From Mailhella massiliensis (GTDB taxonomy: Bacteria > Desulfobacterota > Desulfovibrionia > Desulfovibrionales > Desulfovibrionaceae): 41,691 nt of DNA. The notes under the pieces were generated by a model. The model did not search any database. It had not been told where the DNA came from and saw only the letters and a program-made list of their open reading frames with translations. Numbering within the stretch: position 1 is the first letter of the stretch; every line of letters starts with the position of its first letter. The stretch lies in assembly GCF_900155525.1 (NCBI RefSeq), contig NZ_LT706937.1, positions 1 through 41,691 on the forward strand, given 5' to 3'. Made by a program: the position numbers and the translations under genes. Positions 41,067 to 41,691 of this stretch are shown here, piece after piece.

Positions 41067-41540
41067 ACGTTCTCCTGCCGGTATGATGCCGGCTCCGGTA
41101 AGAGGCCGTGCAAAGGCCGTGTTTTGCGCCTGTCCGAACCCGCTTCGGAGGCAAAGCGCCGCTCCCGGAAGCTCTGCACGCAAGGCGTATGTGTCCGGCG
41201 CTTCCGGCAAAGGACCGGACAATGCCGGTACGGACAGCTCTCTTCCGTTTTCCGGCCTTCCGGCTCCCCTTCTACTGAAACATATAGCCCATACATTCCG
41301 GCATGGTACAGATAAAACACGCCTCGCGTCCACCTCTGCGTAGACGAAAAAACTCCCTCTGCTCCCCCTTCGGAAAACGGCGGCCGTCTCCCGCCTGCAT
41401 CGCCCACGACAAAAAGCATCCCGCACCGCGTATCCGGCAACGCAGAAAACACCGGAAGACAACATGCAACGTGCAACGAAAAACATGCAGGCTCCGCCTT
41501 TCGAAAAGGTAAACGGAGCCTGCAGCAGAGAACGGAGTCA
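41067..41540. other. Gene-free stretch upstream of the hydrolase
   Basis: No gene supported on either strand. It probably contains the hydrolase promoter, but no convincing pair of hexamers was found. It leads into the structured element at 41541. Confidence 0.5.
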
Positions 41541-41663
41541 GGACCACCCGTAGAACGGGTGGCTTGACCAGCCCTGTAAGGGCTTGTTACTTACTCGCGC
41601 CTTAAGGGCGCCGGCTTGAACTTCTCTAGTCGGCGCCCTGCCTTTTTTTCAACAGTTCAAGCC
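41541..41663 (+). ncRNA. Structured RNA-like element, possibly omegaRNA / IS200-IS605-type transposon end (partial context)
   Basis: Four hairpins in 100 bases. H1: CCACCCG/CGGGTGG (41544-41550, 41556-41562). H2: AGCCCT/AGGGCT (41570-41575, 41579-41584). H3: GCGCC/GGCGC (41597-41611). H4: GGCGCCGGCT/AGTCGGCGCC (41607-41616, 41628-41637), which shares bases with H3. A T7 tract follows at 41643-41649. The segment GGCTTGAACT (41613-41622), partly in the H4 loop, is perfectly complementary to AGTTCAAGCC (41654-41663), allowing a pseudoknot or switch. This pattern recalls RNAs at the ends of IscB/TnpB-type elements, but the protein gene, if any, lies outside the window. It could also be only a complex terminator. 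Confidence 0.5.
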
Positions 41664-41691
41664 CCCATGTACTTTGACTCTTAGCCTGCTC

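Follow-up and report, generated by a model that had tools for sequence, protein, structure and literature searches.

IS200 is a widespread and long-studied insertion sequence, the near-immobility of which is ascribed to several blocks to tnpA translation, a leader hairpin among them (PMC12594629). The RNAs of this family named STnc490, art200 or 5'tnpA (Rfam RF01405) are leader or antisense RNAs, STnc490 being antisense to the start of tnpA according to its naming paper (PMC2515195); in excerpts of these papers the 3' UTR goes without description (PMC12594629, PMC2515195). In ISPpu9, the transposase leader can hide the ribosome-binding site, and RNAs encoded up- and downstream add further control (PMC8450116). 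In Staphylococcus aureus, icaR mRNA has a 3' UTR that pairs directly with its Shine-Dalgarno region (PMC3868564), a precedent for control by pairing between 5' and 3' UTRs. Titles and abstract openings on IS200 and on transposase mRNA yielded no 3' UTR partner of the IS200 leader, which does not establish its absence from print; in the searchable literature, the conserved 5'-3' long-range pairing reported here appears to be undescribed.

The locus analyzed here lies at the right end of a stretch of 41,691 nt (the window), which comprises bases 1-41691 of contig C13 in a genome of 3.47 Mb and 28 contigs. It resembles IS200 (E. coli IS200C) and the IS200 group in having a single HUH/Y1 tnpA, hairpins at both ends (LE and RE) and a leader hairpin that hides the ribosome-binding site, and the 5'-3' complementarity is found in E. 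coli IS200C as well. It differs from the group in the letters of its paired segments, in a longer 3' UTR with a stem that we call P3, and in a lineage-specific insert that gives rise to a terminator-like stem facing backwards. On the tnpA-sense strand, RF01405 matches the leaders of E. coli IS200C and of two subfamilies of the source genome (types C and B), while the Sporofaciens leader (L107) matches below the gathering score. As in ISPpu9 with its RNAs Asr9 and Ssr9, a transposase leader that hides the ribosome-binding site would be combined with further control by RNA, but the downstream RNA of ISPpu9, Ssr9, pairs with the antisense RNA and not with the leader (PMC8450116). In contrast to icaR, the tail described here pairs with the loop of a hairpin that already hides the Shine-Dalgarno sequence, it belongs to a mobile element, and it covaries across phyla. 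By identity this is an ordinary mobile-element end, and the kind of control proposed for it is already known from icaR.

Searching the source genome by BLAST with positions 41530-41691 returned 16 matches, itself included. Reading these copies together with their flanks revealed that, where the window stops, copies elsewhere go on into an oppositely oriented transposase gene, the product of which matches Pfam Y1_Tnp (PF01797, with 32 such matches genome-wide; E = 2.2e-39 for the top copies of type A, the window's own subfamily, and 5.4e-39 for the copy after the joint described below). Because the copies continue into an opposite-strand gene whose protein matches PF01797, positions 41536-41691 comprise the 3' UTR of an IS200-group insertion sequence together with its right end (RE), with tnpA on the minus strand and to the right. 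The proteins of all three subfamilies (types A, B and C) have an invariant D-H-x-H and a Y ahead of the C-terminus, which we take to be the HUH motif and the catalytic tyrosine of the Y1 transposase TnpA. Eight full-length type A TnpA genes, free of internal stops and 99-100% identical to the query, are present in this genome; the nearest named relative, in a search that may omit the genome's own records, comes from an uncultured Mailhella (91% identical). Subterminal hairpins were read in the copies at both ends, and were counted at the RE in 70 of 89 elements and at the LE in 70 of 89. The exact last base of the element is uncertain by about 2, as one copy (L011) diverges after TCCTGA.

An earlier note, made from the window alone, had suspected an IS200/IS605-family end here, and the multiple copies and the transposase gene less than 1.5 kb to the right bear this out. 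It also expected the element's open reading frame to the right: a gene is indeed there, encoding TnpA on the other strand, with no TnpB nearby, and the stretch is the 3' end (RE) of a minus-strand element rather than the start of one, as the note had it. A single N directly past the window edge (C13:41692) marks a scaffold joint, beyond which the flank and the element end are repeated (C13:41758-41919) and followed by an intact tnpA (C13:41923-42390, minus strand) that begins 232 bases past the edge. The note's remark that no local gene explains so much paired sequence is right for the window and wrong for the contig, and holds only because the window ends at this joint. The window copy looks like one place represented twice through scaffolding, and its tnpA stop codon would lie just beyond the edge. 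Within IS200 copies, single-N joints were seen here and in L009 and L012 (C18, about 112500); at C13 the flank is the same on either side of the N, and these joints are probable assembly duplications.

Several other copies deserve mention in their own right. L015 and L016 are decayed relatives, with ends 74% and 73% identical and hairpins still visible, and L013 and L014 are type A ends interrupted at CTAG by an insertion of unrelated sequence, which continues GTTCAGGACTCATTAAATATAAAAG. At four loci (L005, L007, L008 and L009) a type A right end joins a type B left end. The letters at the junction are identical, but the outer left flanks are not. Mis-joining, successive insertions into a single site, or a combined A-B unit may lie behind these loci; since type B soon meets an N in L005, L007 and L009, assembly error is a real possibility.

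Table 1. Features at the right end of the window (positions in the window; minus is the tnpA-sense strand).
Feature	Position	Strand	Sequence or basis
3' UTR and RE of IS200-group element	41536..41691	-	16 own-genome matches; copies and flanks; PF01797
Segment complementary to apical loop of tnpA leader hairpin	41655..41668	-	ATGGGGGCTTGAAC with leader GTTCAGGCTCCCGT
P3 stem, 5' arm	41654..41663	-	GGCTTGAACT; overlaps long-range segment
P3 stem, 3' arm	41613..41622	-	AGTTCAAGCC
P4 hairpin	41597..41612	-	GGCGCCCTTAAGGCGC
P5 hairpin	41570..41584	-	AGCCCTTACAGGGCT; most strongly covarying helix
RE subterminal hairpin, expected TnpA site	41544..41562	-	9 pairs; all cells paired in 37 relatives
Element end, then flank	41536..41543	-	TCCTGACT; flanks of own-genome copies
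Terminator-like hairpin (41606-41638) with T7 (41643-41649)	41606..41649	+	insert seen in alignment

Read in the sense of tnpA, the tail presents P3, P4, P5 and the RE hairpin in this order (Table 1). The stretch folds better than its shuffles on either strand (plus, z -3.25, 3 of 200 as good; minus, z -3.23, 1 of 200). Three successive hairpins, a long stem followed by T7 and an exact 10-bp complement had been pointed out in the earlier note, and each is present where it was placed, although the third hairpin (P4) and the long stem are mutually exclusive because both use 41606-41612. The alignment of 37 tails described below explains the long stem, the fourth in the note's count: an insert inside the P3 loop, particular to this lineage, creates a terminator-like stem with its T7. 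This feature, which was not listed by our consensus scan (loops limited to 3-8 bases), faces transcription entering the element against tnpA. A plus-strand pseudoknot across the T-tract was rejected, as the 10-bp complement belongs to the sense-strand structure as its P3 stem and competes with the terminator-like stem. For a pseudoknot, the better-supported partner is the 5' leader of the mRNA.

We aligned 37 tails from elements of Desulfovibrionaceae, Firmicutes, Spirochaetes, Chloroflexi, Actinobacteria and Enterobacterales, as assigned by record titles and kinship. Entry required a GGCTTGAAC-like motif and an RE-like hairpin. Twenty-five of the tails came from a set of 53 after removal of near-duplicates and of six named rows (L051 was truncated, the P3 loops of L112, L119, L123 and L129 had large inserts, and L108 was badly cut), and a further 12 of 14 rows picked by name, including a better-cut L108, were added on the RE-like hairpin alone. 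In this alignment 93.4% of cells are paired and 83 cells are changed on both sides, as compared to 25.8 in shuffled alignments; P5 is the clearest helix, and 94.0% of P3 cells are paired. The RE hairpin score proves nothing new, because an RE-like hairpin was a condition of selection. An alternative fold with P3 and a shorter P4 scores equally well, as the GCC common to P3 and P4 has two ways of pairing.

We scanned 18 genomes, picked because they hold such elements, with a covariance model of the tail and obtained 92 hits. Eighty of the 92 follow a tnpA domain on their own strand at a distance of at most 400 nt, and two of the other 12 are at contig starts. Conversely, 14 of the 96 Y1_Tnp matches in the 18 genomes are without the tail; many of these are weak or partial, and four, at three places in one genome (G208), adjoin tnpB. 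Rfam gave no match for the 3' UTR at E <= 1 in six loci, and neither tRNA nor tmRNA was found in the window. As judged by these comparisons, a P3-P4-P5-RE structure is a recurrent, covarying feature of the sequence 3' of IS200-type tnpA, and is shared by several phyla.

Comparing the two ends of each element revealed a second, long-range pairing. Three IS200 subfamilies of the source genome each have a tail segment complementary to their own leader, in unrelated letters each time: leader and tail read GTTCAGGCTCCCGT and ATGGGGGCTTGAAC in type A, TGTCTCGACTC and GAGTCGAGACA in type B, and GTGCGGTCTGGCA and TGTCAGACCGTAC in type C. For the window's segment, the leader was taken from intact copies such as L031, there being no leader within the window, and the type A duplex has 11 Watson-Crick and 3 G-T pairs. 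Single-element signals are modest: the type A duplex was matched by 37 of 1000 shuffles and the 12-pair version of E. coli IS200C by 16 of 300. The 13-pair version of a Serratia plasmid copy was matched by 3 of 300. L184 scored weakly (44 of 300 shuffles as good) and L182 showed no match (230 of 300), its tail perhaps not being a true 3' end. In a small sample of two tnpA-tnpB elements, ISEfa4 (L186) and a Bacillus plasmid element (L187), the leader-tail match was not above shuffles (229 and 43 of 300, respectively).

We kept 119 elements with a full leader and tail from loci L030-L179 and reduced them to 62 representatives with TnpA identity under 90%. With windows fixed beforehand, leaders scored a mean of 28.1 with their own tails, as compared to 18.0 with the tails of other elements and 16.2 with shuffled tails; the best of 10,000 permutation means was 20.5. 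A score of at least 25 was reached by 45 of 62 matched and 356 of 3782 mismatched pairs. Three elements were then added (122 in all) and the set was reduced through shared 8-mers to 89, among which relatives remain. Under symmetric scoring, in which G.T and A.C count the same, a duplex was detected in 78 of these 89 elements and in 755 of 3000 mismatched pairs. RNAduplex means were -28.2 for matched and -21.6 for mismatched pairs, with a best of 10,000 permutation means of -23.4, although a cut-off of -12 separates nothing (89/89 matched against 7619/7832 mismatched). Eleven of the 89 have no duplex at threshold, including L037, L038, L058 and L161, in which the gene end is shifted or broken; L120, also below threshold, scores well if G-T is rewarded. 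Chance complementarity is ruled out by the mismatched and shuffled controls.

Covariation in the duplex was assessed in 39 elements of the main subgroup, aligned through the motif alone and not through pairing. Fifty-three cells are changed on both sides as compared to 25.8 in shuffles (0 of 500 as high), a count to be read with the core columns fixed by the motif that served to choose and align the rows. Of five measures used, two did not exceed shuffles in these 39 rows: how many pairs had both sides changed, and how many types of pair occurred (464 and 458 of 500 as high). Mapped on the TnpA tree, 21 pair-keeping double changes fall in six columns (permuted mean 7.9, maximum 17 in 500), and the 20 pair-breaking changes are not unusual (permuted mean 25.2, minimum 10). 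Taken as comparative evidence, these data make pairing between leader and tail well supported.

Mutation of a Watson-Crick pair yields G.T and A.C at the same frequency when neither strand is under selection to pair. On the tnpA-sense strand the long-range duplex contains 82 G.T and 12 A.C, whereas random letter pairs of the same windows give a ratio of 0.89. Part of this excess is inherited, because mismatched pairs that pass the threshold share the conserved core and also lean to G.T (553 vs 279). Counts of G.T and A.C in the other helices were 2 and 1 in the RE hairpin, 13 and 6 in the LE hairpin, and 26 and 17 in P4, and no G-T excess was seen in P5 (2 G.T vs 9 A.C) or in the leader stem. 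Among the helices compared, the long-range duplex thus looks the most RNA-like on this strand. Since G.T is also the milder mismatch in DNA, the excess favours RNA and does not prove it; pairing as RNA rather than as single-stranded DNA appears likely. The leader stem itself, with 20 A.C and 3 G.T on the tnpA-sense strand, shows the opposite of the long-range duplex, and would pair better in the antisense RNA (art200/STnc490).

The leader half of the duplex lies wholly inside the loop of the hairpin that bears the ribosome-binding site in 64 of 70 elements and overlaps the stem by more than 2 nt in only 2 of 70, while the 3' arm of the stem contains a Shine-Dalgarno-like motif (by a loose pattern) in 62 of 70. 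Because the leader half is inside the loop, the leader hairpin and the long-range duplex can coexist as a long-range pseudoknot. These observations suggest a mechanism in which the segment just past the tnpA stop codon would pair with the apical loop of the 5' leader hairpin, joining both ends of the tnpA mRNA. Such a closed form would stabilize the leader hairpin, whose stem holds the ribosome-binding site, so that little TnpA would be made, and it may also present a double strand to RNase III. As local P3 uses the letters of the long-range segment, it would compete with the long-range pairing and could serve as a switch. A closed tnpA mRNA pseudoknot that restrains translation is probably the best explanation of the data as a whole; we infer that the pairing forms in RNA and represses translation, and that P3 acts as the switch.

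The same complementarity could act in single-stranded DNA. Annealing of leader and tail within one strand would then leave tnpA as a loop and place the LE and RE hairpins side by side for a TnpA dimer (synapsis); in an excised circle, the RE-LE junction would come to lie between the paired segments. The TnpA proteins of this family act by way of single-stranded DNA, and the hairpins of both ends are bound by them (PMC6006769), and the mRNA-sense DNA strand has letters identical to those of the RNA, so that sequence data alone cannot fully separate the two. Yet the duplex has 82 G.T to 12 A.C, whereas the RE hairpin has almost none of either (2 and 1) and the LE hairpin 13 and 6, and a role in DNA does not require the segment to sit in the loop of a translation-control hairpin, as it does in 64 of 70 elements. 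We consider this possible but unlikely.

Action in trans, rather unlikely in our estimate, would have the tnpA 3' end, or a small RNA cut from it, bind the leaders of other copies as multicopy control, or open the leader and activate translation, in the manner of antisense RNAs to the leader. The tail segment has the sense of an antisense RNA to the leader, the genome holds the eight near-identical type A TnpA genes noted above, and IS200 is known for a leader-derived small RNA and an antisense RNA (PMC12594629, PMC2515195). However, the stem arms masking the ribosome-binding site stay outside the duplex, apart from an overlap beyond 2 nt in 2 of 70 elements, and direct unfolding is not the obvious result.

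A broader reading, in our view doubtful, treats the two transcript ends as parts of a single composite RNA through which the state of the transposon would be sensed, a circuit tying transposase output to integrity or excision. In the integrated form the tail, made last, would lock the leader only on a complete tnpA mRNA; in an excised circle, the tail would immediately precede the leader across the RE-LE junction, and a junction transcript would pair locally and behave differently.

It is improbable that these are ordinary ends, in which hairpins serve TnpA, terminators stop transcription from outside and the inverted repeat has no function as RNA (being, for example, a site for a protein on double-stranded DNA). 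TnpA does need the RE hairpin (PMC6006769) and the T7 stem resembles an outward-facing terminator, but the covariation of P4 and P5, the strand bias and the placement in the leader loop would be left unaccounted for, and a double-stranded site should give G.T and A.C equally. TnpB omegaRNAs are structured RNAs that end at the RE, the very position of this tail, and one TnpB domain match exists in the window's genome (on C18, not on C13), but an element of the guide-RNA kind (omegaRNA, reRNA or HEARO) that works for TnpB or IscB, in cis or in trans, as suggested in the earlier note, is highly improbable: neither HEARO nor any other Rfam family matched in the window at the gathering score, and the element was not found at the three G208 sites that have tnpA next to tnpB. 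A guide role for TnpB is moreover unsupported, because a TnpB domain lies within 1500 bases upstream on the same strand in 0 of the 92 model hits and PF07282 is missing at E <= 0.001 from 13 of the 18 genomes.

The sites of insertion were also recorded. Left flanks are T-rich, in an analysis whose search pattern itself contained TTAA for type A. An intrinsic terminator occupies the left flank, directly upstream of the element, in 8 of 9 copies of type A and 6 of 9 of type B (G000; L003-L009, L027, L041-L049), as compared to 78 of 11,902 40-mers of the window, and a terminator-like site occurs no more than 82 nt before the LE hairpin in 27 of 70 elements (L101-L178), as compared to 4 of 642 windows farther upstream. 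The insertion target may be the T-tract of a terminator with TTAA or ATTAT.

The comparison of matched with mismatched ends over many copies, combined with G-T against A-C counts, offers a search recipe for long-range pairs, and here points to a bacterial 5'-3' UTR pseudoknot with natural covariation. A conserved 3' UTR partner of the leader would add a layer of control to IS200-group elements from Enterobacteria to Firmicutes, Spirochaetes and Chloroflexi. If the reading as a composite RNA were true, an RNA kept by covariation across phyla would constitute a circuit linking transposase output to the integrity or excision of the element.
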